Shown: positions 1 to 13,176 of the stretch, piece by piece
Layout: each line of letters begins with the position of its first letter
How positions within the stretch are numbered: the first letter of the stretch is position 1
Source: Bacteroidota bacterium
GTDB taxonomy: Bacteria > Bacteroidota > Bacteroidia > Bacteroidales > WCHB1-69
DNA: 64,000 bases
NCBI GenBank assembly: GCA_022708105.1
Contig: JAKIZI010000007.1
Location: 326 to 64,325 of the forward strand
Direction of reading: 5' to 3'
Notes under the pieces: model-generated
The model's database searches: none
Seen by the model: only the letters and a program-made list of their open reading frames with translations
Told to the model about the DNA's origin: nothing
Made by a program: the position numbers and the translations under genes

Positions 1-343
1 CAAGTTACAACTACTTTTGATACGAGCTGTGCCGCTCGATAAACCACTGTCTGCCGAATGTTTTATACACGTTATTAAACTAAACCTTCGGTAAATAAAG
101 ATCTGTGAATATGATAATTTAGCTTCAGGATTAGTTCAACGTGCAAATGTAATAAAATTTTTTAAGATATTCACTTTTATGAATATGATACCAAAAACGG
201 CATAAACAGATAAAAATGTAAAATTTACAACAAATTTCATCCAACGAATGAAACTGAAATTTCAAATTGATACAAAGACAAAATCTCTCAACTTCATAAT
301 TTACCCCCCTCATTGTAAATTATATTATCACTTATATTTCATA
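1..343. other. Gene-free mosaic left of hsdS
   Basis: I see no credible gene here. The stretch looks like debris from the same rearrangements that shaped 1-5 kb. Positions 83-122 resemble 5028-5065, including the shared string tatgataattta. Positions 278-314 nearly match the 3' end of the IS66 transposase gene (3896-3932). A 60-codon minus-strand frame across 131-313 has no protein-like features and overlaps these repeat remnants, so I do not call it. What lies beyond the window edge is unknown. Confidence 0.6.
278..314 (+). repeat. Remnant of an IS66 tnpC 3' end
   Basis: Positions 278-304 are identical to 3896-3922, inside the last codons of the intact IS66 tnpC, and the match continues with one mismatch through ccctcatt. 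No inverted repeat or other IS66 sequence accompanies it. It is best read as the scar of an earlier, mostly deleted IS66 copy, or as a product of recombination between copies. Confidence 0.6.
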
Positions 344-1513
344 TCAATTTTTCGTACCTTTCGTGGTTGAGAAACTTAACAACTTATCCCTATAATACTC
401 ATACTGCTTTTTCCGTAACTCAATCTCTTTCGGCAAACCTTCGCTAATACTCGTGGTAAGCGTATCGAATTTATCGAGAATGGAAACAATGCGCTCTTGT
501 TCTTTGATGGGTGGAATAGGGATTATTATTTTAGCCATATCACTTGCTGAAACATCAATTACTTTTGTCCCTTTAGCTAGTTTTCTTTTTTGACTTGCAA
601 ATCCTTCTATTTGTGTAAAATAAGCAAAGTACTTCCCTAAAATTTCTTTTGATGGTTTAATTATGGTTGCATGACCACCTGTAACAGCTTGTTCTTTGCC
701 TAGATAAACAACTGCTTTTCCAACATCTTCTAGGTTCTCACTAGTATTAGTAATTACAACATCACCAGTATCAACCTTTTTTAATTTCATGGCGGTTTCA
801 GGCGAAACAAAGGATTTAGTTTCTGTAGTAAAAGTTTTATAGTAAGTATAAATTTGACCATAATGAATGGCTGGGATTCCTGTTTCTGTAAAATCAGTTT
901 TAAATAATCCATTACCTCTCACTAATTCAGCCACTTCCCCCAACATCTTCCACTCCACTTCACCATCCTCAAAGCTTAACAACTGCTCCCGATAGTACTC
1001 ATACTGTTTTTTACGAGCTGTAAGCTCTGCTGTAAGCTCTGCTGTAAGCTCCGTAAAGGTATCCAAAATACGGACTATTTCGGCTTGGACGGGAAGCGGT
1101 GGAATGGGGATTTGGAGATTTGCTAAATCTTTGGGATAAACATGTGGCACACCTGACCCTTTTTGTAAATTATGAATCCATTCTTGATTATTTAATAAAA
1201 AATGGAAAACATACCTTGTATTCATAAAATCCAAATGAGGTTTAACTGAAAACGCATCAGAAACATAGATTGGCTCATTCCAATACATTACAAAACCTGC
1301 ATAAGCACCACTCCCTGCAACAGTTATTGTTTCTCCTTCACGATTAAATTCAGAATTGTAGTAAGCTGGTTTTTGACCACCACTAATTACAGGAATCTCG
1401 CCATTTGTTTTAGTTTTTGCAGTAATTGTTGCACCACGTTTTAATTCTGCTACCTCTCCCAGCGTTTTCCATTCCACTTCCACACCTTGTAATAATGTAT
1501 CTAAATAACTCAT
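344..1513 (-). CDS. hsdS: Type I restriction-modification specificity subunit HsdS
   Basis: This is the DNA-recognition subunit of a type I restriction-modification complex. It would direct HsdM and HsdR to a bipartite target through two target-recognition domains (TRDs). The 389 residues show the family layout: TRD1 at about 15-150, a spacer helix with PIPPLPVQAEIVRILD and a KKQYEYYREQLLSF tail near 137-183, TRD2 at about 187-330, then a second spacer with PIPPIKEQERIVSILD and KKQYEYYRDKLLSF. The first spacer contains tandem TEL-TAEL-TAEL units. The ATG at 1513 follows a strong purine-rich ribosome site (aggaggga). No hsdM or hsdR is in the window, and hsdM would be expected upstream, where the IS66 element and a second hsdS 5' fragment lie. 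It is therefore an orphan or part of a shuffled locus. Call certain; activity unknown. Confidence 0.93.
   Translation of the reverse strand: MSYLDTLLQGVEVEWKTLGEVAELKRGATITAKTKTNGEIPVISGGQKPAYYNSEFNREGETITVAGSGAYAGFVMYWNEPIYVSDAFSVKPHLDFMNTRYVFHFLLNNQEWIHNLQKGSGVPHVYPKDLANLQIPIPPLPVQAEIVRILDTFTELTAELTAELTARKKQYEYYREQLLSFEDGEVEWKMLGEVAELVRGNGLFKTDFTETGIPAIHYGQIYTYYKTFTTETKSFVSPETAMKLKKVDTGDVVITNTSENLEDVGKAVVYLGKEQAVTGGHATIIKPSKEILGKYFAYFTQIEGFASQKRKLAKGTKVIDVSASDMAKIIIPIPPIKEQERIVSILDKFDTLTTSISEGLPKEIELRKKQYEYYRDKLLSFSTTKGTKN
1017..1052 (-). repeat. Three tandem 12-bp units encoding TAEL repeats in hsdS
   Basis: Units starting at 1017, 1029 and 1041 read gctgtaagctc(t/c) on the plus strand. 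They encode the TEL/TAEL repeats in the HsdS central spacer. In the type IC enzymes EcoR124I and EcoR124II, a change in the number of such repeats changes the spacing between the two half-sites. The near-perfect DNA identity here makes copy-number change by slippage or unequal crossing-over plausible. Confidence 0.85.
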
Positions 1514-1554
1514 GCTTCCCTCCTGTTAGATTAAATATAACAATCCGTTTGGGT

Positions 1555-1583
1555 GTATCCACCCGACCAACCCCATATTGTAA
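1555..1583 (+). repeat. IS66 left terminal inverted repeat
   Basis: This 29-bp sequence is the exact reverse complement of 3959-3987. The flanking 8-mer gtttgggt at 1547-1554 is the left copy of the target-site duplication. Confidence 0.95.
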
Positions 1584-1600
1584 GACAAATCTCAGAGTAG

Positions 1601-1608
1601 TATTTTTG
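1601..1608 (+). promoter_or_regulatory. -7 box for the IS66 operon
   Basis: TATTTTTG matches the Bacteroidota -7 consensus TAnnTTTG and lies 11 bp before the tnpA ATG, so any leader would be only a few bases. No clear -33 TTTG at the ideal spacing was seen. Confidence 0.5.
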
Positions 1609-1619
1609 TCGGAAAAAAG

Positions 1620-1883
1620 ATGGAGAATAAACGAAGTATTATGTTTTCTTATGTAAAAGAATGGCTCAAAACAGATTTAACAAAGAAAAGATTTGCGGAA
1701 GAGCATCAATTCTCGGTTTATTCATTCCAATATTGGTGTAAAATATATGAACAAACCCATTGTACTTCTGAGCCCCATCCACAATTCATAGAAATTAAGC
1801 CAAAAAAGGAATTAGTTGACCTGTCACGTAAAGTACAAATGGAATTGACTTTACCTAGTGGAATACAAATTAAGATATACTAA
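1620..1883 (+). CDS. tnpA: IS66 accessory protein TnpA
   Basis: This is the first gene of the IS66 element, a small protein of 87 residues. IS66 TnpA-type proteins are helix-turn-helix accessory proteins needed for transposition together with TnpB and TnpC. The N-terminal half (about residues 5-40), with the segments VKEWLKTDLTKKRFAEE and FQYWCKIYEQ, has the look of a compact helical DNA-binding domain. Its 3' end overlaps an upstream GTG-initiated extension of the tnpB frame, but the likely tnpB ATG lies 4 bp beyond the tnpA stop. The assignment rests mainly on position and size, since the sequence is short. Confidence 0.85.
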   Translation: MENKRSIMFSYVKEWLKTDLTKKRFAEEHQFSVYSFQYWCKIYEQTHCTSEPHPQFIEIKPKKELVDLSRKVQMELTLPSGIQIKIY

Positions 1884-1887
1884 AAAC

Positions 1888-2235
1888 ATGTTAGGTTTCA
1901 GTAGTAATTTACACTATTATATCTGTACAAAGCCTGTAGATATACGCAATAGTTTTGATGGTTTGGCAGGGATTGTGCGTAATTTTATGCAAAAAAATCC
2001 AATAACGGAAGGTGTTTTTATCTTCATAAACAAAAGACGGACACATATAAAGCTATTATATTGGGATGAAGATGGTTTTGTATTGTATTATAAAAGATTA
2101 GAACAAGGCGTATATCAGTCTAATATCACTGTTAATGCCCCCTCTCAGGAATTGAAAAGAGAAGAGGTAATGATGCTTTTGGAAGGGTTATCCTATCAAA
2201 ATATGAAGAAAGGGAAACGCTTCAAAATAAGTTAA
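1888..2235 (+). CDS. tnpB: IS66 accessory protein TnpB (IS66 Orf2)
   Basis: The product is an IS66 Orf2-like protein of about 115 residues. The diagnostic start is MLGFSSNLHYYICTKPVD followed by RNSFDGLAGIV, which matches the family pattern (Y-x-KP-x-D-x-R-x-SFDGLxGLV). I chose the ATG at 1888 over a GTG at 1858 because the family usually begins just before this motif and the GTG extension would overlap tnpA. The middle holds FIFINKRRTHIKLLYWDEDGF, also typical (in the family, FxNRRRxxIKLLxWDxxG). The protein is essential for IS66 transposition in studied cases; its biochemical role is not settled. Confidence 0.92.
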   Translation: MLGFSSNLHYYICTKPVDIRNSFDGLAGIVRNFMQKNPITEGVFIFINKRRTHIKLLYWDEDGFVLYYKRLEQGVYQSNITVNAPSQELKREEVMMLLEGLSYQNMKKGKRFKIS

Positions 2236-2286
2236 TTTTTCAGCGATTATTTATACTAAAAACGCTTGATATATAAGTCTTTTTAG

Positions 2287-2294
2287 TATATTTG
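2287..2294 (+). promoter_or_regulatory. -7-like box just before tnpC
   Basis: TATATTTG matches TAnnTTTG and ends 4 bp before the tnpC ATG. A transcript starting at the usual distance would be leaderless. It may be a real internal promoter or chance in AT-rich DNA. Confidence 0.3.
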
Positions 2295-2298
2295 TCAC

Positions 2299-3957
2299 AT
2301 GAGAACAGAAGAAAATAATACAAATAATAATTCGATTTTCGATTCCGAAATTGAAAAGATTCTTATAGAAAAGGATCGAATTATTTCTCAACTCTCATTA
2401 AAGAATGAAGAACTCTCCGGAAAGAATGAAGAACTCTCCGGAAAGAATAAAGAACTCTCGGGAAAGAATGAAGAACTCTCCGGAAAGAATGAAGAACTCT
2501 CGGGAAAGAATGAAGAACTCTCCGGAAAGAATGAATATTTGCTCTATCAGATAGCACAATTAAAAAGGATGCTTTTTGGCAGTAAGCGTGAACGTTTTGT
2601 TCCTAATGAAAATCAAGAACAGCTAACCATTCCCTTTGAAGTTGAAGTCTCAAAGGTAAAAGAGTACATAGAGACGGAAAAAGAAAAAATCACCTATGAA
2701 CGCAGTAAAGAACGCAAAGCACATTCGGGGAGAGAGAAATTGCCGGAGCATTTACCTGTAGAAGAAATTATTTTGGAGCCGGAAGAAGATACTGAAGGAA
2801 TGACTTATATCGGAGATGAAATTACAGAAGAATTGGAATATAAACCTGCTATTTTCTACATAAAACGATATATTCGTCACAAATATATGACCCAAGAAGA
2901 TGAAAAGGGATATCAACGCCAAGTGATTGCAGAATTACAACGTTCTATCGCCAAATGTATGGCAGGAAGTAATTTATTGTCGGAGATAGTGATAAACAAA
3001 TTTGTAGATCATCTGCCGATTTATCGTCAATTACAGAGATTTATGAGGGAAGATATACATATCAAATCTTCGACGATAGAATCGTGGCTAAAGTTAACTT
3101 CTCAACTGCTTCGCCCCTTATATGGAGTCTTAAAAGCATATGTTTTAGAGGCAGGTTATTTACAAATTGATGAATCTCCCATACCGGTCTTGGACAGGGA
3201 TAAGCCCGGATCAACGCATCGGGGCTATATGTGGGTATATCATTCAGTAATGCAACAAGCAGTTTTTTTTGAATACAATAAAGGACGAGGAAAAGATTAT
3301 CCTAATAAGAATTTAGCAAATTTTAAAGGCTACTTGCAAACAGATGGGTACGTGGTTTATGATCAATATGCTCATCAACAAAATATAACTCATCTAAGTT
3401 GTTGGGCACATGCTCGTCGATATTTTGAGAAGGCTTTGGATAATGACAAAACTCGTGCGACTGCCATCTTATTGCTTATACAAGAATTATATGCCGTAGA
3501 GCAAAAAGCTCGAGATGAAAATCTTTCAAATATAGCCTTATCTGAACGTCGACTCGATGAATCTTTGCCAATATTAAATAAAATAGGAAAATATATTGCG
3601 GAAAACAGAAAGAATGTACTCCCCAAAAGCCCTATAGGAAAAGCGTTTGATTATTGTCTTGCACGATGGGATTCTTTACTTAATTATCTTAAAGATGGAA
3701 ATTTACTAATAGACAATAATCTCATAGAAAATGCTATTCGTCCCTTGGCATTAGGAAGAAAAAACTATTTGTTTGCCGGTTCACATGATGCAGCCGAAGA
3801 TATTGCCATGTATTATAGTTTTTTTGCTACTTGTAAAAAAAACGACCTCAATCCTAAAAAATGGTTGACCTATGTCATTGAGCACATAAACAATTACAAA
3901 ATCTCTCAACTTCATAATTTACTCCCTCATTTTTTTGACAAATCTTTATTGAATTAA
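2299..3957 (+). CDS. tnpC: IS66 transposase TnpC (DDE)
   Basis: This is the catalytic transposase of the element, 552 residues, a normal size for the family. The likely DDE triad is D291 (YLQIDESPIPVLD), D349 (YLQTDGYVVYDQY) and E477 (IDNNLIENAIRPLALGRKN), with the conserved CWAHARRYF zinc/insertion region near 368. The N terminus is a coiled coil ending in LKRMLFGSKRERF, as in other IS66 transposases. Unusually, residues about 35-80 are a tandem array of the 7-residue unit LSGKNEE. The gene ends 2 bp before the right inverted repeat. All motifs are intact, so the protein is probably functional. Confidence 0.97.
   Translation: MRTEENNTNNNSIFDSEIEKILIEKDRIISQLSLKNEELSGKNEELSGKNKELSGKNEELSGKNEELSGKNEELSGKNEYLLYQIAQLKRMLFGSKRERFVPNENQEQLTIPFEVEVSKVKEYIETEKEKITYERSKERKAHSGREKLPEHLPVEEIILEPEEDTEGMTYIGDEITEELEYKPAIFYIKRYIRHKYMTQEDEKGYQRQVIAELQRSIAKCMAGSNLLSEIVINKFVDHLPIYRQLQRFMREDIHIKSSTIESWLKLTSQLLRPLYGVLKAYVLEAGYLQIDESPIPVLDRDKPGSTHRGYMWVYHSVMQQAVFFEYNKGRGKDYPNKNLANFKGYLQTDGYVVYDQYAHQQNITHLSCWAHARRYFEKALDNDKTRATAILLLIQELYAVEQKARDENLSNIALSERRLDESLPILNKIGKYIAENRKNVLPKSPIGKAFDYCLARWDSLLNYLKDGNLLIDNNLIENAIRPLALGRKNYLFAGSHDAAEDIAMYYSFFATCKKNDLNPKKWLTYVIEHINNYKISQLHNLLPHFFDKSLLN
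2401..2533 (+). repeat. 21-bp tandem repeat inside tnpC
   Basis: About six near-identical 21-bp units (aagaatgaagaactctccgg plus one base) encode the heptad LSGKNEE. Units differ only at one or two positions, such as aataaa for aatgaa and tcgg for tccg. As heptads they extend the N-terminal coiled coil. Such repeats can gain or lose copies without a frameshift. Confidence 0.9.
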
Positions 3958-3958
3958 T

Positions 3959-3987
3959 TTACAATATGGGGTTGGTCGGGTGGATAC
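3959..3987 (-). repeat. IS66 right terminal inverted repeat
   Basis: Exact reverse complement of 1555-1583. The 8-mer gtttgggt at 3988-3995 is the right copy of the target-site duplication. Confidence 0.95.
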
Positions 3988-4025
3988 GTTTGGGTTACTT
4001 CTGTTATATGATATCACATATATCA

Positions 4026-4043
4026 GCAATCCGTTAGGATTGC
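4026..4043 (+). repeat. REP-like hairpin 1, plus orientation
   Basis: gcaatcc-gtta-ggattgc forms a 7-bp stem with a 4-nt loop and is followed by atcgctcggtag. That tail resembles the one after the hairpin at 4636 on the opposite strand (aacgctcggtaa). It lies downstream of the Y1 transposase gene. Confidence 0.75.
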
Positions 4044-4080
4044 ATCGCTCGGTAGCCATTATTTGGCACCCCAAAAACCC

Positions 4081-4098
4081 ACATTCCGATAGGAATGT
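4081..4098 (+). repeat. REP-like hairpin 2, plus orientation
   Basis: acattcc-gata-ggaatgt forms a 7-bp stem with a 4-nt loop immediately downstream of the transposase stop codon. It could also act as a transcript end structure. Confidence 0.7.
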
Positions 4099-4102
4099 GT
4101 CC

Positions 4103-4564
4103 TTATTGAATTTCCGAAAAAATATATTTTTCATTGTATTCTATTTCAAATTTTTGCAAAATATCTAAATATTCTTCTCTGAATGTTTTCTTCTTATGAT
4201 GCTGCTCTTGTGTTTCAATATAATTACAAACGGCCGGGATTTCTGATTTTGCATACGAAAATGCACCATACCCCTCTTGCCAAGAAAATTTACCCATTAC
4301 CAATTTTTCTTTGTTAATCCATTCCGAACTATCGCGTTTCACTTCTTGCATCAATGCAGATAAAGCTTGTGTGGGACGAAAACCTATCAAAATATGAATG
4401 TGGTCGGGCATTCCTCCAATGCACAATACTTTATGTCCATGCTTTTGGATAATGGCAATGATGTATAAATACAAACGCTCTTGCCAAGATGGTTGAATGC
4501 AAGAAATCCGATTTTGAACTGCAAAAACTGCGTGAATATGTATCTGCGTATAGGTATTTGCCAT
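4103..4564 (-). CDS. Y1 single-strand transposase, RAYT-like (IS200-like fold)
   Basis: This is a 153-residue HUH-superfamily nuclease of the Y1 transposase fold. It contains the metal-binding HUH motif as HIH (H55, H57, in GMPDHIHILIG) and the probable catalytic tyrosine Y115 in AVCNYIETQEQHH. These enzymes cut and join single-stranded DNA at hairpins. I start at the ATG at 4564 (MANTYTQIHIHAVFAVQ); the frame is open to 4588, but that extension lies inside a hairpin. The gene is bracketed by two REP-like hairpins on each side, in opposite orientations. This is the arrangement of REP-associated tyrosine transposases, which are usually domesticated single-copy genes that mobilise REPs. There are no IS200 ends. 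Whether it is RAYT proper or an IS200 relative cannot be decided without a tree. Confidence 0.9.
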   Translation of the reverse strand: MANTYTQIHIHAVFAVQNRISCIQPSWQERLYLYIIAIIQKHGHKVLCIGGMPDHIHILIGFRPTQALSALMQEVKRDSSEWINKEKLVMGKFSWQEGYGAFSYAKSEIPAVCNYIETQEQHHKKKTFREEYLDILQKFEIEYNEKYIFSEIQ

Positions 4565-4584
4565 AATCTTTCTGCTTTTAGGAT

Positions 4585-4602
4585 GCATTCCTAACGGAAT
4601 GC
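4585..4602 (-). repeat. REP-like hairpin 3, minus orientation
   Basis: Read on the minus strand this is gcattcc-gtta-ggaatgc, a 7-bp stem with the same gtta loop as hairpin 1. It lies immediately upstream of the Y1 transposase. Confidence 0.75.
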
Positions 4603-4635
4603 AATTTGATCGTTATTTGTTTTTTACCGAGCGTT

Positions 4636-4653
4636 ACATTCCTAACGGAATGT
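4636..4653 (-). repeat. REP-like hairpin 4, minus orientation
   Basis: On the minus strand, acattcc-gtta-ggaatgt is followed by aacgctcggtaa. Stem, loop and tail match hairpin 1 in inverted orientation, completing a symmetrical pair around the transposase. A half copy (aacggaatgttgttct) recurs at 4803. Confidence 0.75.
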
Positions 4654-4925
4654 TGTTCTAAATCCAACACCTGACAACACATCACCTTTTCACTGGAGTA
4701 TATATCACGAATACGATGGAGCAACTTTTTTCCATAGTTACCGCCTCCCAGCGTTTTCCATTCCACGATATGTCCGCTGAGCGTAGTCGAAGTGGGGCAT
4801 ACAACGGAATGTTGTTCTAAACTCAACACCTGACGATACATCACCTTTTCACTGGAGTATATATCACGAATACGATGGAGCAACTTTTTCGAATAGTTAC
4901 CACCGCCCAATGTTTTCCATTCCAC
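4645..4925 (-). repeat. Two direct copies of a 122-bp repeat
   Basis: Positions 4645-4766 and 4803-4925 are near-identical direct repeats. Each ends with the hsdS-like string gttttccattccac, which also occurs at the start of the intact hsdS. The 36-bp spacer contains cttcgactacgctcagcgg-like sequence, here in inverse orientation. The repeat may be an extended REP-type unit that recombined with hsdS. Confidence 0.75.
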
Positions 4926-5189
4926 CTCAACACCTTGTAATAATGTATCTAAATAGCTCATACTTCAATCTTCCTTACAATTTATTTACGCAACAAATAT
5001 AAAACTTTCGTAAATACACATCTTATAACATTCGTAAATAAAATTCTGTATTTATGATAATTTAATGAACATAAATAATTTGCTTTCAATATTTGAACAA
5101 GGATTGCGTTTGCAACGGTATAGCGATGCATATATACGTAATTACAAATCACCGCAAAGGCGCTAAGACGCAAATATTTTGCCATCCGC

Positions 5190-5346
5190 GGGGTGAGGGC
5201 GTAGGCGGAAAGCCCGCAAAGACGGGAGGCGATGTGGACGCTGCTGCAAAAGAGCGACCGGAGGAAGCTCCTTTTGCAGCTTTGCGGCCACACGACTACC
5301 GGCTGCGGACTTGGAGCCGGAGACCGACGGCGAAGCCGGCACCCCA
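5190..5346 (+). repeat. GC-rich dispersed repeat, full copy A
   Basis: This GC-rich block of about 155 bp stands out from AT-rich surroundings. It is highly similar to 11921-12081. Shared landmarks are gcggaaagcccgcaaag, a hairpin with arms gctgcaaaag and cttttgcagc, and ggctgcggacttggagcc. The two copies open the same peptide frame, but the differences include amino-acid changes with no synonymous bias that I can see. I therefore treat it as a non-coding repeat and not as a gene. Confidence 0.8.
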
Positions 5347-5360
5347 AAATAAAAAACATA

Positions 5361-5394
5361 AAAAAAAGGAGACTCCTAAAAGCCTCCTTTTTTG
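5361..5394 (-). terminator. Rho-independent terminator (bidirectional)
   Basis: The arms aaaaaaaggag and ctccttttttt enclose a short loop, giving a stem with a T-run on either strand. It lies 22 bp after the stop of the minus-strand sorting-domain protein gene at 5416. Confidence 0.8.
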
Positions 5395-5415
5395 AAAAAT
5401 CCGTAAACGGAATAA

Positions 5416-6285
5416 TTATTCTTTTACGAATTTTTTGGTTACGGTATTGTCTCCGCTCAAACGTACAAAATAAACACCTGCCGTTAAATCAGCCGTGTTG
5501 ATTTGGAAATCGGTTGCGGTAACTTGGTTGCTGTATACCACTTGGCCAAGAAAGTTTACGATTTCAACTTTATCGAAACCGGCTGCATTTACATTCAATA
5601 CGTCATTTACGGGATTCGGATAAATAGATACTTTGTTGCTTGCTGCTTCGTTAATGCCAACACCACCACCGGTTTGAATGGTAACATCATCTAAAAATAA
5701 AATAAATGCATCTTGAGATACACAATTTAAAGCGATGTATTTAGCTCCAACAGGGAAAGAATAGGTGAATTCAGTCCAGATTGAATCTACTTCTACATAA
5801 TTTCCCGTTTGAATGAAAGTAAAAGCAGAAACATCATTAGTGGTAGTAGAATAACCTACTTTAAATCTTTCCATTCCATAATTGGTAACATAAGATCTTG
5901 CCCAGAAATTAATAGAATAAGTTTCCGTTTCGGAAAGTGCCGGACTAATCATCCAATCGTCATTATAGCTTACAAAGTTATCTTCGTCATAAGGAACTGC
6001 ATTAAAAAAAGCAAGCACTTTATCGCCTGATTGAGGAACAATTGATGTTAATGCAGGAGAACAGGTAGTAACATTAAATACAATCGCAGCCATTGTGTCA
6101 TAAGAATTTGTAAAAGTAACATCTGTAATCCCATAAGTCGGACGTTGGTCAACATCAACAAATGTCCACACTCCTGTGGGATTCATCGTAAAATCGGCAT
6201 AACTTTCGAAGTCATCCGTAATCGTTTGTGCATTCATCGCAGCAACTGCGAAAAACATGGATAAAATTGTAAAGATTTTTTTCAT
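5416..6285 (-). CDS. Secreted cleaved-adhesin-type protein with T9SS type A sorting domain
   Basis: This is an exported protein of 289 residues. It has a signal peptide (MKKIFTILSMFFAVAAMNAQ), an adhesin/carbohydrate-binding-like beta domain at about 21-205, and a C-terminal type A sorting domain at about 215-289. The adhesin domain contains DDWMISPAL, typical of cleaved-adhesin or choice-of-anchor J domains. The sorting domain contains VSIYPNPVNDVLNV, VEIVNFLGQVVY and GVYFVRLSGDNTVTKKFVKE. Type A domains send proteins through the outer-membrane T9SS and are then removed. There is no catalytic domain, so binding or surface attachment is the likely role. It is a single-gene unit with its own promoter box and terminator, next to porX. 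Confidence 0.9.
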   Translation of the reverse strand: MKKIFTILSMFFAVAAMNAQTITDDFESYADFTMNPTGVWTFVDVDQRPTYGITDVTFTNSYDTMAAIVFNVTTCSPALTSIVPQSGDKVLAFFNAVPYDEDNFVSYNDDWMISPALSETETYSINFWARSYVTNYGMERFKVGYSTTTNDVSAFTFIQTGNYVEVDSIWTEFTYSFPVGAKYIALNCVSQDAFILFLDDVTIQTGGGVGINEAASNKVSIYPNPVNDVLNVNAAGFDKVEIVNFLGQVVYSNQVTATDFQINTADLTAGVYFVRLSGDNTVTKKFVKE

Positions 6286-6609
6286 AACTTTTTGGTTTTA
6301 AATTAATAAATTGAACAATTATTGTCTTTTTTAATAAAAAGGATTTCTATTTCTTTTCAATTTGCAAATATAAATATATTTTTTAAATATGCAATACAAA
6401 ATCTAACTATTTCACAAAAAATTATAGCAAACAATCTGAATTTTTTTTTATGTACATCAAAAAGAATTTTCCGGCTTCTGATTTTTCACATCCGGCTTTG
6501 ATCTATTTTCTAAGATTTACTGATAATTAAAATTGTTTTTTTAATTCTTTGGAATGTTAATAAATAATATGTAGGAACTTAAAAAAAAGTACAAATAAAT
6601 AGAAAAAAA
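6286..6609. other. AT-rich intergenic region
   Basis: This stretch lies between two minus-strand genes. It contains the promoter box of the 5416 gene (6365-6372) and otherwise only AT-rich sequence with homopolymer runs. I found no ORF, hairpin terminator or RNA-like structure for the upstream porX gene. Confidence 0.6.
6365..6372 (-). promoter_or_regulatory. -7 box for the type A sorting-domain gene
   Basis: On the minus strand the sequence is TATATTTG, matching TAnnTTTG. It predicts a leader of about 75 bases before the ATG at 6285. Confidence 0.55.
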
Positions 6610-8160
6610 TTACTTGGGAAGCAGTTTTACACAGGGAACCATCATCTCTTCCATAGAAATTCCGCCGTGTTGGAAGGTGTTTTTGTAGTAGCTGACGTAG
6701 TAGTTATAGTTATTGGGATATGCGAAGAAGTCATTGCGGGTAGCAAATACAAATTGGGAGGTAATTCCCTCTTTGGGTAAATAGGCATCCGCCGGATTTT
6801 TAATTTCAAAGACCTCTTTTGCCGGATAATCCATATTTTTCCCCACCTTATAACGTAAATTGGTGTTCACATTTCTGTCTCCAATCATCTTGAGGGGACG
6901 GTCAATTTTAATGGCACCGTGATCGGTGGTAATGAACACCGGAATTTTCTTCGCAGAAAGGAATTTCAACATATCTAATAACAACGAATTCTCGAACCAC
7001 GAAGCTGTCACGCTGCGATACGATTTTTCATCCTGAGCCAATTCCCGAATCAAATCCACATCGGTACGGGCATGGGAAAGCATGTCCACAAAATTGAAAA
7101 TAATAACGTTGAACGGATTGTTCAGGAGTTGATGAAAAGCGTCAAACACCTTTTTCCCGAATTCAAGATTAAGAATTTTATAGAAGGAAAATTTTACATT
7201 TTTTCCGTGTCTTTTGAGGTACTCGGCAAGCAACTCTTGTTCGTGCTGGTTCTTTCCTCCTTCATCATTTTCATTGAGCCAAAGTCCGGGGTATTTTTTT
7301 TCAATTTCGGAAGGTAATAATCCCGAAAAGAGGGAATTGCGGGCATAATGAGTTGCCGTAGGCAAAATACTGTAGTGAATATCCTCATTTTCGACATAAA
7401 AGTAGTTGTGAATGAACGGCTGTATGCTCTTCCACTGGTCGTATCGTAAATTGTCGATTACAAAAAGGAATACAGGTTGCTTTTCGGAAATAGAGGGGAA
7501 CACTTTTTCTTTGAGTGCCGTATGGGAAAGAATCGGTTTATCATCTCCTTTGCCGTTGAGCCAATTGATATAATTTTTCATAATAAAACGAGCAAATTGG
7601 GTATTGGCTTCCTCTTTTTGCTGCGCCAAGATTTCGGAGATCCCCGGATCTTCAATATTCTCCAACGCCAATTCCCAATAGACCAACTCTTTATACAATT
7701 CCTCCCACTCATTCACAGAGAGATGGTCTGAAATTCTCATGGATATATTACGGAAAGCTTGTTGATAATCCATGGTTTTCTTCTCGGAGACAATCTTCAC
7801 ATTTTCCGTGTTCTTTTTCAAACAAATCCATATCTGATTCGGGTTCACCGGCTTGATAAGATAATCGGCAATATTGGAGCCGATGGCATCTTCCATAATG
7901 TGTTCTTCTTCACTTTTGGTAATCATTACCACCGGAATATTGCTGTTCAGGGCTTTCATTCTTTTCACGGTTTCAATACCGGTTAATCCGGGCATATTCT
8001 CGTCCAATAAGACAATGTCAATGTGTTCCTTTTTCATCACTTCAAGAGCATCGTCACCACTCACTACGGGGATAACTTCGTAACCTTTGCTTTCCAAAAA
8101 AAGAATATGGGGTTTTAACAAATCTATTTCATCGTCGGCCCAAAGAACTTTAATATTCAT
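6610..8160 (-). CDS. porX: T9SS response regulator PorX (receiver + PglZ domain)
   Basis: PorX is the response regulator that controls T9SS gene expression with the kinase PorY and sigma factor SigP in Porphyromonas. The protein starts MNIKVLWADDEIDLLKPH. The receiver domain spans about 1-120, with acidic D9/D10, phospho-acceptor D53 (VLLDENMPG), T81 and K103. A PglZ/alkaline-phosphatase-like domain follows at about 205-515, with metal-site candidates FVIDNLRYD, DMLSHARTD, TTDHG and FQHGG. At 516 residues it matches the known PorX length. I use the ATG at 8160, because an upstream ATG at 8211 adds 17 residues not seen in the family. The regulator is unusual in having an enzymatic rather than DNA-binding output domain. 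No PorY is in the window. Confidence 0.93.
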   Translation of the reverse strand: MNIKVLWADDEIDLLKPHILFLESKGYEVIPVVSGDDALEVMKKEHIDIVLLDENMPGLTGIETVKRMKALNSNIPVVMITKSEEEHIMEDAIGSNIADYLIKPVNPNQIWICLKKNTENVKIVSEKKTMDYQQAFRNISMRISDHLSVNEWEELYKELVYWELALENIEDPGISEILAQQKEEANTQFARFIMKNYINWLNGKGDDKPILSHTALKEKVFPSISEKQPVFLFVIDNLRYDQWKSIQPFIHNYFYVENEDIHYSILPTATHYARNSLFSGLLPSEIEKKYPGLWLNENDEGGKNQHEQELLAEYLKRHGKNVKFSFYKILNLEFGKKVFDAFHQLLNNPFNVIIFNFVDMLSHARTDVDLIRELAQDEKSYRSVTASWFENSLLLDMLKFLSAKKIPVFITTDHGAIKIDRPLKMIGDRNVNTNLRYKVGKNMDYPAKEVFEIKNPADAYLPKEGITSQFVFATRNDFFAYPNNYNYYVSYYKNTFQHGGISMEEMMVPCVKLLPK

Positions 8161-8243
8161 ATATTTAATTTTATTGATGTTTTCCATTAATAAAAACGAA
8201 TCCGGCGGCATATTGTTTTATCGGACAAAAGATTTTGAGCGGT

Positions 8244-9980
8244 TTAGAAATTCAGGGCCAATCCGAAATGAATTTTTCCGGTTTTGAAGGAGATCGGATT
8301 GTCTAATTGTTTGCCCAAAGCATAGCTCAGATAAAAGAGTCCTGCTTTCGTATCGAACGCCACGCCCAGACCGAAACCGAAGGGAAAATCCGAAAAATAC
8401 TTTGCGGAGAGGTTTTTCTCATACCAGGCCCCATCGAAAAAGAGGTTAAAATAGGCCTTGGGGGCAAACAGGAAACGCAATTCGGCCGTGCCAATCAAGT
8501 AAGTCGAAGCCGTAATTTCATCCTCATTGAATCCTCTGAGACTGTTCATTCCTCCTATTTTAAACAGTTCATTTTCAACCATGGAGGGAGCGATCAATGT
8601 TCCCCCGCGAGCCCCCAACTTAAAAACCCAACGTTTATGCAAAGGCATATAGCCCTGAAGCTGTCCCAACACCCGATAATGGACTGTTTGTAATAACATT
8701 CCCTCATACAATGATTCCGGCAATTTATTATTGGCCATAATCTTGCGCGTCCCTGCTCCCAGATTGAAATGCAATACGATTCCTTTCGTCGGATTGTACA
8801 AATAATCCAAACGACGATAATAAAGCTCCACTCCGTACAAAGCGCGCGAGTAGTCAGCCAACAGCAAAGCCGTTTCGGAAGCAGCCGATGCTACCGACAA
8901 TAAACTTGAGGTGGTATAATCGAAAAAGCCTTTTACAAAAGAGGCATTGGCAAAAGTATATTGTACCCCGAGCAGATAGTTCATGGAGAGATAGGCCGTA
9001 TCGGTTTTATCCAGCATAAAATCCCCGCTTATCCCTATTGGCGTTCGGAAGAGGAAGGGAAAATCGGCATGAACTTTAAGATATTGAGAATGTCGGCCGG
9101 GACTTCGCCAGAGCAAATCAAAAGACTCCCCTACTCCGAAAAGATTCTTTAAATTGAGTTGCAACTCACCCGCCAACGCAATTTTACCTGTCCGTTCATC
9201 CACCGGCACCAAGCCGATATAGCCGTCAAAACGATTCATTTTTTTCTTATTCAAAAAGAGATAAAGATAAGCACGGTCTTCCACAAATTCAACGCCGGCC
9301 GGGAGGAGTTCTGTCGCAAACTGAATCTCTCGGCTCTTTTGGGGAACTCTCGAAATAATGCGTTCATTATACGGTCGATCTTTTCTTATCCCAAAATAGG
9401 GATAGAGAAATCCCTTTTTCAATTTGGCATCTCCTTTCAGCACAATAGAATCAAAGGTTATATAGCGGTTTTTTTCTACTTTAAGAGATGCAGAAAAACG
9501 ATTTTCTTCCATCATCACACTATCGAGAGAAACCACAGCAAATGGATAGCCGTGTTCTTCTAAATATGTTAATAGTTTTTCAGACACTTCCGAAAAATCC
9601 GAAAGGGGAATTTGATTCTGCTTCATACGTGAAGATAGTCGTGCTTCCTGAAGAAGAATTTGCTCCGGTTGCAACACTTCGATATGGGCATTGGGAATTT
9701 TCGTTCCTTCCCAAAGCAATAAGCGATAATGCGCTGAATCCACTATCACGGAATCCACTGAAAAAGAGAGATAGCCGACACGTCGGCACGCTTGAACAAA
9801 TTGTTCTATTTTTCGTTCCAGCTCCTCCCGCGATTTAATCTTTTTTTGCAATCCATTGCTCCGTGCAAGTTGAAGAATTTCACTATTTTGCGAAGTAAAA
9901 AGCACCTCTTTTTGTGCTTCAGCAGTAAGTGAAAAAGCAATTAACAAACAGAGAAATAAAATTAACTTGTTTATTTTCAA
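8244..9980 (-). CDS. Omp85/BamA-TamA-family outer membrane protein
   Basis: This is a 578-residue outer-membrane beta-barrel of the Omp85 superfamily. It has a signal peptide (about 1-22, ending LTAEAQ), POTRA-like periplasmic segments at about 25-250, and a 16-strand-type barrel from about 255 to the end. The superfamily signature GGMNSLRGF is at 476-484, and the C terminus ends in aromatic F (FGLALNF), as expected for barrel proteins. It is shorter than BamA, so it resembles TamA or TpsB-type members that insert or translocate proteins. No upstream ATG supports the signal peptide, so the start is a TTG at 9980. It lies upstream of porX with an 83-bp gap and divergent from the small lipoprotein gene. 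Confidence 0.88.
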   Translation of the reverse strand: MKINKLILFLCLLIAFSLTAEAQKEVLFTSQNSEILQLARSNGLQKKIKSREELERKIEQFVQACRRVGYLSFSVDSVIVDSAHYRLLLWEGTKIPNAHIEVLQPEQILLQEARLSSRMKQNQIPLSDFSEVSEKLLTYLEEHGYPFAVVSLDSVMMEENRFSASLKVEKNRYITFDSIVLKGDAKLKKGFLYPYFGIRKDRPYNERIISRVPQKSREIQFATELLPAGVEFVEDRAYLYLFLNKKKMNRFDGYIGLVPVDERTGKIALAGELQLNLKNLFGVGESFDLLWRSPGRHSQYLKVHADFPFLFRTPIGISGDFMLDKTDTAYLSMNYLLGVQYTFANASFVKGFFDYTTSSLLSVASAASETALLLADYSRALYGVELYYRRLDYLYNPTKGIVLHFNLGAGTRKIMANNKLPESLYEGMLLQTVHYRVLGQLQGYMPLHKRWVFKLGARGGTLIAPSMVENELFKIGGMNSLRGFNEDEITASTYLIGTAELRFLFAPKAYFNLFFDGAWYEKNLSAKYFSDFPFGFGLGVAFDTKAGLFYLSYALGKQLDNPISFKTGKIHFGLALNF

Positions 9981-10041
9981 TTATTTATATATTATTTATT
10001 TCAAAAGCTTTAAAAATCAAATTTTTAATATGAATTTTCAT

Positions 10042-10049
10042 TACTTTTG
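10042..10049 (+). promoter_or_regulatory. -7 box for the small lipoprotein/PorG-like operon
   Basis: TACTTTTG matches TAnnTTTG. Transcription would start about 7 bases downstream, giving a 15-base leader to the ATG at 10072. This placement rules out the longer upstream ORF start at 9967. Confidence 0.6.
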
Positions 10050-10071
10050 CAAAGTTAAAATAATAACGGAA

Positions 10072-10212
10072 ATGAAGAAAATTATTGTTTTTATCATCAG
10101 TATAATTGTATTTACAGCCCTATTTTCATCATGTGCAAGTTACGCCAAATGTCCGGCTTACGGTCATTACTCTCAGGTGCAACCCGTTGCTGTGGATGAA
10201 AACAGTCTGTAG
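10072..10212 (+). CDS. Very small lipoprotein upstream of the PorG-like barrel
   Basis: The product is 46 residues: a signal peptide MKKIIVFIISIIVFTALF, a lipobox ending at C20 (SSCAS), and a 27-residue mature peptide with a second cysteine (YAKCPAYGHYSQV). The open frame extends back to 9967, but the promoter box at 10042-10049 lies inside that extension. It is 16 bp upstream of the PorG-like gene and probably co-transcribed. Mature lipoproteins this short are rare; it may be an accessory or assembly factor for the barrel. I do not recognise a named family. Confidence 0.8.
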   Translation: MKKIIVFIISIIVFTALFSSCASYAKCPAYGHYSQVQPVAVDENSL

Positions 10213-10228
10213 TTAACAAAATGCTTCA

Positions 10229-11008
10229 ATGATGGGCATTAACGAAAAACTGTATTTCAATTTTTCAAAAGCATGTTTTTTCATGCTTTTTTTATTTATG
10301 CCTTTTTGGGTGGAGGCGCAGGAGCGTGGGGAGGCACAAGGGGAGCGTGTTTACATAAAAGAGTGGAATTTCTCGCTCATCCTGAACACCTCGGGAGGCG
10401 GTATCGGGTTTCAGCACGGGCGCACGCCCAACTATTTCGACAAACATTTTTGGGAAATTGATTTTTTATACAACATTCATCAGAAGTCGGTTCGGGCAAG
10501 AAATCCTTATTATTCAGGTGTTTCGGCATACACGTATGGCAAATTAGCGGACCTGTTTTTTTTGCGTGGCGGTTACGGATATCAGCGCACTATTCATCAG
10601 AAGCCTTATTGGGGCGGGGTTCGGGTGCGATACACACTTTCGGGTGGTTTTTCCCTCGGAATGGCTATGCCGGTTTATCTCTACATAAGCTATATCACTC
10701 CGACAGGATTTCAACAGGTGGCTGAACGCTACGACCCTTCGATTCATAATATTGATAACATTATTCAGCGGGGACCTATTCTGAAAGGAATTTTCGAAAC
10801 CAAACTCCATCCCGGGTTTTATTTCAAGACCGGATTTAATTTTGACTTCAGTAAAGACGAAGCCACCATCCATATTATTGAAATCGGGGGCAGCATTGAC
10901 ATGATTTTCCCTTTCGTAGAGCAAATGGCTTACAACAAAACAAAGCCCTTTTATCTGTGTGCCTATTTATCCTATAACTTCGGCAAGAAAAAAGGGCATT
11001 ACGAATAG
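10229..11008 (+). CDS. Outer membrane beta-barrel protein, PorG-like (T9SS) candidate
   Basis: The 259-residue protein has a signal peptide ending VEAQ (about residue 30) and a mature part made of alternating short amphipathic strands. Conserved-looking segments are HGRTPNYFDKHFWEIDFLY, YTYGKLADLFFLRGGYGYQR and GGVRVRYTLSGGFSLG, followed by PVYLYISYI. This pattern is that of a widespread Bacteroidota barrel family that I associate with PorG, a partner of the PorK/PorN ring of the T9SS. The family link is from memory of conserved motifs and needs a profile search. The proximity to porX and to T9SS cargo supports it, as does the co-transcribed small lipoprotein. Alternative: a generic outer-membrane protein of unknown role. 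Confidence 0.6.
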   Translation: MMGINEKLYFNFSKACFFMLFLFMPFWVEAQERGEAQGERVYIKEWNFSLILNTSGGGIGFQHGRTPNYFDKHFWEIDFLYNIHQKSVRARNPYYSGVSAYTYGKLADLFFLRGGYGYQRTIHQKPYWGGVRVRYTLSGGFSLGMAMPVYLYISYITPTGFQQVAERYDPSIHNIDNIIQRGPILKGIFETKLHPGFYFKTGFNFDFSKDEATIHIIEIGGSIDMIFPFVEQMAYNKTKPFYLCAYLSYNFGKKKGHYE

Positions 11009-11022
11009 ATATAATTCATTAT

Positions 11023-11170
11023 TGGGGTCCGAAAATAAGTACCGGGAAAAAAATGATTATTATTGGTGTCCGGGAAAATAAGTACCGAGAAAATAATAAT
11101 ATCTAAATTTACTTTTTTCTCTTTCGTACTTTTGTCTTGATACAAAAGTACCAAAAAATCAAGGCAAAAA
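11023..11170 (+). repeat. ggtgtccg-type dispersed repeat with hairpin, copy 1
   Basis: A unit of the form ttggNgtccg..aaaataagtaccg occurs twice in tandem (from 11023 and from 11070). It is followed by a conserved tail of about 70 bp. The tail contains a perfect inverted repeat at 11126-11151, with 10-bp arms gtacttttgt/acaaaagtac and loop cttgat. A near-identical tail is at 62183-62291 and a head-only copy lies at 21456. Confidence 0.8.
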
Positions 11171-11330
11171 GAATGCCGCCCGCTCTGCCAAGCAGCTAAG
11201 CGGTTTTATCAAAACAAGGAAACGACAAGCGGTTTTGCAAGAACCGCTAAGCTGTTTGTCATTCACAGCACCGCCGCTTCTGCTTTTTGCCAGGCCGACG
11301 CGCGTGCTTCGTGGCGAATGATATGGGAAT

Positions 11331-11500
11331 TTGCTCCTACGGAGCTCATAATGTTTATTTAATAATGATGTTTGTAAAAAAATAACCAGAAAAATTCTAT
11401 GATGATGAAAGAATCAACATGGAACGGACTGGAGCTCCGTAGGAGCGAGATATTGGTAGAAAAAAGAGGAACAAATAAATCCAAAAGCTCCGTAGGAGCG
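11331..11500. repeat. Cluster of three ctccgtaggag REP-like hairpins
   Basis: Self-complementary gctcc-tac/gta-ggagc units occur at about 11333-11345 (inverted), 11434-11446 and 11488-11500. The one at 11434 is followed by gatattggtagaaaa, resembling the hairpin-plus-ggtag layout of the REP-like units at 4.0-4.7 kb. No transposase gene is adjacent, so they may be non-autonomous REPs. Confidence 0.65.
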
Positions 11501-11920
11501 GCACAATTCCACATATTTACCATATCATCACACCGTTTCACGGCAGATTGTATGGTCATTTGTTGGAGGTTGAGAATTATCGAAAAAAAAAGGAAATTGC
11601 GATAATTTCTTTTAGGAACTTTTGGTTGCAAGCCTTCCTCGAGGTCGTACATTATGTTTCTCGACACTTATTTTCCCGAACACGAATAATATTCTATAAA
11701 ACATTTCCAAACATTCCAAATATCACGATATGGACAATGTTGCGGAGCAACAATTTTTGTCTGACGTCCCTGACCGGGACGCAGGGAAGATGGTTTCTTC
11801 TTTCATTTCTACCGGGCTTCAGCCCCTAATCGGGGCTGAGCTGAAATACGAAATAATATTCCCTATTCGGGTCTGAGAGGAAAATTGAAATAATCCCACG
11901 AAGGACGGTCGGTGCAAGTT

Positions 11921-12081
11921 GCGGCGTGAGGCGCTTAGGCGGAAAGCCCGCAAAGACGGGAGGCGATGTGGCCGCTGCTGCAAAAGAGCGACCGGAGGAA
12001 GCTCCTTTTGCAGCATTGCGAGCACACGACTACCGGCTGCGGACTTGGAGCCGGGCGCCGGCGGCGAAGCCGACACGCCCT
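11921..12081 (+). repeat. GC-rich dispersed repeat, full copy B
   Basis: Second full copy of the element at 5190-5346, in the same orientation. About 110 bp in the core are almost identical, including the gctgcaaaag/cttttgcagc hairpin. It ends 24 bp before the stop of the DUF4293 gene, which is in the convergent orientation. Confidence 0.8.
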
Positions 12082-12104
12082 GATTATTAATAAAATAAAT
12101 ATTT

Positions 12105-12581
12105 CTATCGCAATCTGTCCGCAGAACGAACCAAATTTTCATCTTTTTTAATAGCCCGATTAGCTAAAAAGATAAAAAAAGGCGGAAGCACGCCAAGCAT
12201 AATCCAATAATTGAACCTAAATTCTTCGGGATTCAAAATATAACCTTCACGGGAAAAAAGGACATCCGGAAAAATATATAACATTAACACCAAAACCACA
12301 AAAAGAAGTATCATATTGAAGTTATTGATTTTGGTCTGTTTTCTGCGATTTTTATAATTAAATAAGGTATAAATCGAAGTGGCGGCAGAAACAAATAAAA
12401 TTATGGCAATATATAATGTCTGCATCTTGATAGCGCCATTGGGAACATCTTCTTTCAACACAAAGGAGGTGAACACTAAGGATGCCTCATCGGTATAAAT
12501 ATATCCGATTGGGATAAAGACAACAACAACAGTAATTATTGCGGCCAGCAATAAATAGAGAGATTGGATTCTTTGAATCAT
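12105..12581 (-). CDS. DUF4293 family membrane protein
   Basis: This is a 158-residue integral membrane protein of a Bacteroidota-restricted family of unknown function. The start MIQRIQSLYLLLAAII is the family hallmark. Four hydrophobic segments are visible, near residues 8-28, 55-75, 88-105 and 125-143, with a basic linker (YKNRRKQTK) between the second and third. The last residues are charged and probably cytoplasmic. It lies 19 bp downstream of the lipoprotein gene at 12601, so co-transcription is likely. The dispersed GC-rich repeat follows its stop codon. Confidence 0.85.
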   Translation of the reverse strand: MIQRIQSLYLLLAAIITVVVVFIPIGYIYTDEASLVFTSFVLKEDVPNGAIKMQTLYIAIILFVSAATSIYTLFNYKNRRKQTKINNFNMILLFVVLVLMLYIFPDVLFSREGYILNPEEFRFNYWIMLGVLPPFFIFLANRAIKKDENLVRSADRLR

Positions 12582-12600
12582 AATAATAAAAATTAAATGG

Positions 12601-13176
12601 TTATTGAAGTGTTTTATTGAGTGTAATGTAGGACAATTTTACCGGAGAATCCCCTACTTTGATATAAGGACGAAACTTAACGGCCACATTGGAAGGACGT
12701 CCGGAGCCATATTCGGTCATTTGTTTGGCAAAGTTGACGATACTTTCAAGAGTTTGTTGTTTCAGGACATCTCCCATGTTCACTCTTACCGGAATCGGAA
12801 TTATCTGACGACCTCCGTTGGCAGGCACATTGATGTTTATTTTGGGATTACTTCCTTCCACAATTGTACGTCCGTCGAGCAGCATCTGATAATCAAAGCC
12901 GTGGAGTGCGGCGGGCACGGTGGTGCTATTTTTCGCCAACACATTAATCGTAAACGTAATGTTATAATCTTTCCTTAAAAGGGCAGCAGTTGCTTTCGCC
13001 GCATCGCCAACGGATATATCTTGCACGCTTTTGATATTAGAGAGATTGATGCCAGCCCAAGAGATGTTTGCAAAGTCCGACATTTGATACTTGAGATTTG
13101 CCATATTTAAAGCTTGTTGTAGCGCACAACCCGAAAGCAGAAGTCCCAAAACAAGAACTGCAACTATTTTTTTCAT
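12601..13176 (-). CDS. Lipoprotein with LEA type 2/WHy-like domain
   Basis: The product is 191 residues with a lipoprotein signal (MKKIVAVLVLGLLLSGC; acylated C17). After a short linker, the region at about 65-160 alternates strands with NVLAKNSTTVPAALHGFDYQ, LLDGRTIVEGS and NVPANGGRQIIPIPVRVN. This is the layout of LEA14/WHy beta-sandwich domains, including the NP-rich strand and a stated binding region. These domains occur in stress proteins, and their bacterial role is unclear. It sits 17 bp downstream of the DPP III-like gene and 19 bp upstream of the DUF4293 gene, suggesting a three-gene operon at the cell envelope. Confidence 0.7.
   Translation of the reverse strand: MKKIVAVLVLGLLLSGCALQQALNMANLKYQMSDFANISWAGINLSNIKSVQDISVGDAAKATAALLRKDYNITFTINVLAKNSTTVPAALHGFDYQMLLDGRTIVEGSNPKININVPANGGRQIIPIPVRVNMGDVLKQQTLESIVNFAKQMTEYGSGRPSNVAVKFRPYIKVGDSPVKLSYITLNKTLQ

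Follow-up and report, generated by a model that had tools for sequence, protein, structure and literature searches.

An EcoR124-type specificity subunit gene with a two-repeat TAEL array as a plausible latent spacing switch in a Bacteroidota bacterium

The window, i.e. the whole 64-kb stretch of DNA analyzed here (64,000 nt), carries an intact hsdS gene (344..1513, minus strand; 389 aa) that, according to Pfam, structure matching, modeling and PADLOC, encodes a specificity subunit of type IC (EcoR124-type). The best explanation of our data, which we consider very probable as a whole, is that this is an ordinary DNA-specificity subunit of a known kind, in which an array of TAEL tetrapeptides sets the spacing between the two DNA half-sites and the gain of a repeat unit would lengthen the gap. 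This spacing mechanism is already established for type IC enzymes and is not new. By analogy with these enzymes, the gene is a plausible latent spacing switch, and its product may at present be an orphan, unexpressed or without partners.

The predicted protein contains two Methylase_S domains (PF01420, E 9e-45), its top PADLOC matches are Specificity_I models, and an AGGAGG just 5' of the ATG provides a plausible ribosome-binding site; the partial ORF downstream of hsdS yielded nothing from PADLOC. In the AlphaFold model (mean pLDDT 88, pTM 0.65, the relative placement of the domains being less certain), we found two long helices, residues 140-178 and 336-379. The best Foldseek matches of this model are S subunits of restriction systems, with EcoR124I HsdS (PDB 7bst) within the top three, and Pfam, AlphaFold and Foldseek all point to the architecture of type I HsdS proteins, two target recognition domains (TRDs) joined by conserved helices. 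The N-terminal TRD runs to ILDTF (residues 1-153; 1055..1513, minus strand) and shares 72% identity with its counterpart in L061, the closest full-length relative. The C-terminal TRD (482..964, minus strand; limits approximate) is of a type shared by relatives, with 71-85% identity in at least ten loci from several phyla, and by inspection it is recognizable in Klebsiella plasmid loci. The second spacer helix, ILDKFDTLTTSISEGLPKEIELRKKQYEYY (392..481, minus strand), is without a tandem repeat and, in homologues, is constant in length at 19 residues.

The repeat array lies inside the first long helix, in a part modeled with a pLDDT of 82-94. TRF delimits it at 1017..1051 (minus strand) as 2.9 copies of a 12-bp unit with 100% matches, encoding EL-TAEL-TAEL at residues about 155-166. 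The initial annotation had described 12-bp units at 1017-1052 that encode TEL-TAEL-TAEL in the first spacer helix; TRF and AlphaFold agree with it, except that the array ends one base earlier, at 1051. On the coding strand the sequence reads ACG GAG CTT ACA GCA GAG CTT ACA GCA GAG CTT ACA GCT CGT, which translates to T E L T A E L T A E L T A R. The first unit amounts to (F)TEL only, and functionally the array counts as two TAELs, like that of EcoR124I. When shifted by 12, the array matches itself over 23 bases, compared to a maximum of 12 at this period and of 15 at any period of 7-60 in 200 first-order Markov versions of the 64-kb window; it is therefore far above chance expectation. Moreover, equal residues use the same codon in seven of eight pairs, where local codon usage predicts 2.9 (p about 0.007), so the DNA of the array is more repetitive than its peptide demands.

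Among solved S subunits, EcoR124I HsdS (7bst) is the nearest in sequence (E 4e-55; next best 2e-12). Both proteins share the same architecture and a first spacer of 15 residues (ILD to RKKQY), and at about 33% identity in the structure alignment they align without a gap across LTAELTAEL-xx-RKKQY, which implies that the window protein has the two-TAEL (N6-like) length. Together with TRF and AlphaFold, this alignment places a tetrapeptide tandem repeat in the first spacer helix, as is typical of type IC. The TRDs of the two proteins differ, so their half-sites are expected to differ as well, and EcoR124I, unlike the window gene, is encoded on a plasmid with hsdM and hsdR. With two TAELs, EcoR124I targets GAA-N6-RTCG, whereas EcoR124II, with three, targets GAA-N7-RTCG (PMC3874165); the parallel to this pair that had been drawn in the initial annotation is thus correct. 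More generally, type IC enzymes change specificity through a short repeat within the first helix, with a domain shift of ~1 bp per repeat, and according to a 2013 review three repeats are apparently optimal (PMC3874165). EcoR124II, EcoDXXI and EcoprrI carry the same unit at the same position as the window gene, but with three TAELs instead of two and a gap longer by one base. A tetrapeptide array is also found in NgoAV HsdS of Neisseria gonorrhoeae, where the repeat is LEAT rather than TAEL and its number, together with a frameshift truncation, alters the motif between strains (PMC6789123).

Applied to the window gene, the mechanism would work as follows. The two TRDs would be spaced by an antiparallel pair of helices, and each copy of TAEL would add about one helical turn and about one bp between the DNA half-sites, as inferred from published EcoR124 work. 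With its two TAELs, the subunit would be EcoR124I-like, with a predicted N6-like interval of 7 nt between the methylated bases. Slippage or unequal crossing-over that adds one 12-bp unit would keep the half-sites and widen the gap by 1 bp; if the system is active, a single slip of this kind would re-address all of it to new DNA sites. At 35 bp the array is short, and slippage should be slow compared to phase-variable tracts of many units.

The reading that competes most closely is compatible with the EcoR124-type assignment and differs on present activity only. It holds that the subunit is a stranded orphan, with hsdM and hsdR lost or moved, an IS66 element cutting it off, and a TAEL repeat that is inherited and without current function; we rate its chances at slightly below even. 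The gene order in relatives is hsdM, hsdS, hsdR, sometimes with an extra gene on either side of hsdS, and at the window locus no hsdM was found upstream of hsdS. A search of the whole bin (75.8% complete) with PF02384, PF04313 and the L061 HsdM and HsdR as queries returned other type I families only and no type IC HsdM or HsdR. The best matches in the bin reach 38% (HsdM) and 36% (HsdR) identity; among loci that carry EcoR124-type systems the values are 53-90% and 42-91%. Given the completeness of the bin, the absence of partners is unproven. On different contigs of the bin we found five or more HsdM genes from other type I-like families (L027, L028, L029, L030, L031), and an HsdM on contig C218, located with a Fic-family gene at the contig end, was rejected as the cognate partner (25-29% identity to L061 HsdM).

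The surroundings of the gene also bear on this reading. Using Pfam and a repeat search, we found a complete IS66-type element with perfect 29-bp terminal inverted repeats (1555..3987, plus strand) inserted 41 bp upstream of the hsdS start codon. By direct reading it is flanked by an 8-bp target duplication, GTTTGGGT, with the hsdS-side copy at 1547..1554, 33 bp before the start codon, and the far copy at 3988..3995. The element, which is present as a single copy in the assembly, cuts hsdS off from anything upstream and counts against an active system. Beyond it follow a Y1 (IS200-like) transposase gene (4103-4588), surrounded by short palindromes of the type CATTCCTAACGGAATG (4019-4660) and together with these resembling a REP-associated tyrosine transposase (RAYT-like), and then a second, truncated hsdS 5' end (4905..4961, minus strand; about 20 codons, 95% identity; Pfam, repeat search) that runs into RhuM-like fragments. 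In this stretch (4644-4961), the broken hsdS start is fused to two 123-nt copies of a RhuM-like fragment with 91% identity. On the other side, about 36 bp past the hsdS stop, is a 37-nt relic (272-308) that matches the IS66 transposase gene at its 3' end with 92% identity. As a minor observation, the IS66 transposase gene itself contains a 21-bp repeat (2400-2535; 6.5 copies, 94% matches) that encodes KNEELSG near the transposase N terminus, directly before the leucine-zipper domain.

Partners that were not found in the assembled 76%, together with IS66 just upstream of the start, thus suggest that the subunit may be an orphan, in line with the transposase, the broken hsdS start and the IS66-like relic around it. 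Against this stand the intact ORF of 389 codons with its plausible ribosome-binding site, the about 24% by which the bin is incomplete, and a scaffold that is interrupted by a gap and breaks off a short way downstream, where hsdR would normally be expected: the window begins directly behind a stretch of ten N, beyond which 315 further bases lead to the scaffold end. The gene is known from one assembly and in one allele.

A second alternative, that specificity changes mainly through exchange of TRDs or recombination with the hsdS start at 4905-4961 and not through the number of TAELs, appears improbable to us. Ten or so homologues do pair the shared C-terminal TRD (71-85% identity) with unrelated N-terminal TRDs, and the repeat of the hsdS 5' end, 61 nt at 90% identity, lies 3.4 kb from the gene. 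However, with its about 20 codons this second copy lacks a TRD, so that recombination there could not install a new domain, and a non-systematic look identified no recombinase near it.

That arrays of the window's kind vary in length is supported by their relatives. A scan of contigs for homologues of the window HsdS gave 80 loci, with 57 homologous ORFs in which both spacers were recognized. The first spacer has 15 residues in 35 of these and 19 in 22, corresponding to two and three tetrapeptides, whereas the second has 19 residues in 56 and is read as 39 by the pattern in the remaining ORF. A wider pattern search yielded a first spacer of 11 residues in two cases and of 23 in none. The excess of two-repeat over three-repeat arrays bears on the view that three is optimal, but because a two-repeat query was used to pick the homologues by similarity, the ratio of 35:22 may be biased and is not an unbiased frequency.

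If selection acted on the peptide only, codon agreement between units should be no higher than codon usage predicts. In 69 spacers (the window and 68 from related loci, including one spacer of the second type and one locus taken twice), we instead observed the same codon in 533 of 591 pairs of equal residues, with 218 expected. Units of 60 distinct arrays are 95.5% identical within an array compared to 76.6% between arrays, and shuffling units among arrays gave a within-array identity of 80.3% at most, a permutation result that is descriptive because the loci are phylogenetically non-independent. Among units that encode the same peptide, agreement at wobble positions is 96.6% within and 64.5% between arrays. 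Such homogenization within arrays is what recurrent gain and loss of units should produce; gene conversion would look similar.

Full-length relatives differ in repeat number as well. L061, from a Flavobacterium MAG (VEQT01000014.1), is 73% identical to the window protein overall and has both TRDs of equal type (the C-terminal one at 71% identity), but it carries three TAELs and, unlike the window gene, sits in a full hsdM-hsdS-hsdR locus. Two Klebsiella plasmid loci (L148, NZ_CP102995; L149, NZ_CP132738) differ over 1.6 kb by one 12-bp TAEL unit only; the compared stretch takes in the end of hsdM and the first bases of hsdR. In PLSDB, lengths taken from the match span correspond to three units in 7 records, to two in 13 and to one base less in 2; sequences were read for L148, L149 and L150, the last of which has TAKL as its middle unit. 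The E. coli hsdS searches returned few full-length matches, since the TRDs differ, and some rows with spans longer by 12 bp over shared halves, judged by span only, were not counted as evidence. For a comparison closer to the species level, a genus-mate (G001) offered a weak HsdS match only.

L061 and the Klebsiella pair show that repeat number changes in genes of the window's kind, and support for the switching mechanism in the family is good. The least probable alternative, that protein-level selection maintains the TAEL helix at a constant copy number while codon bias makes the DNA repetitive, could draw on a TAEL-like peptide conserved across phyla and on recurring units such as ACAGCAGAGCTT (28 times), but at the family level it is already contradicted by the likeness of units within arrays, also at the wobble positions of same-peptide units, by codon identity above the codon-usage expectation, and by the exact one-unit difference between otherwise identical plasmid loci.

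A broader proposal, which we put forward tentatively and regard as rather unlikely in its full form, is that TAEL-type arrays act as a two-state spacing switch, long-lived and kept active across phyla, with units renewed by turnover, a first helix of 15 or 19 residues and a second fixed at 19, and that the window gene is a live member in the short state. Apart from this proposal, the family survey provides a resource of natural loci that are exactly one TAEL unit apart.

Elsewhere in the window, an interspersed GC-rich repeat about 160-210 bp long occurs at 5140-5350 and about 11921-12079. In the 2.0-Mb bin it has 41 matches, which show 82-100% identity, lie in both orientations and are spread over many contigs. 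The repeat has no Rfam match; one copy folds better than shuffled sequences (z -3.0). Rfam gave no credible match over positions 1-13000 of the window. Finally, a gene at 6610-8211 encodes a response regulator with a fused PglZ domain, an arrangement that we take to be that of PorX, which regulates type IX secretion.
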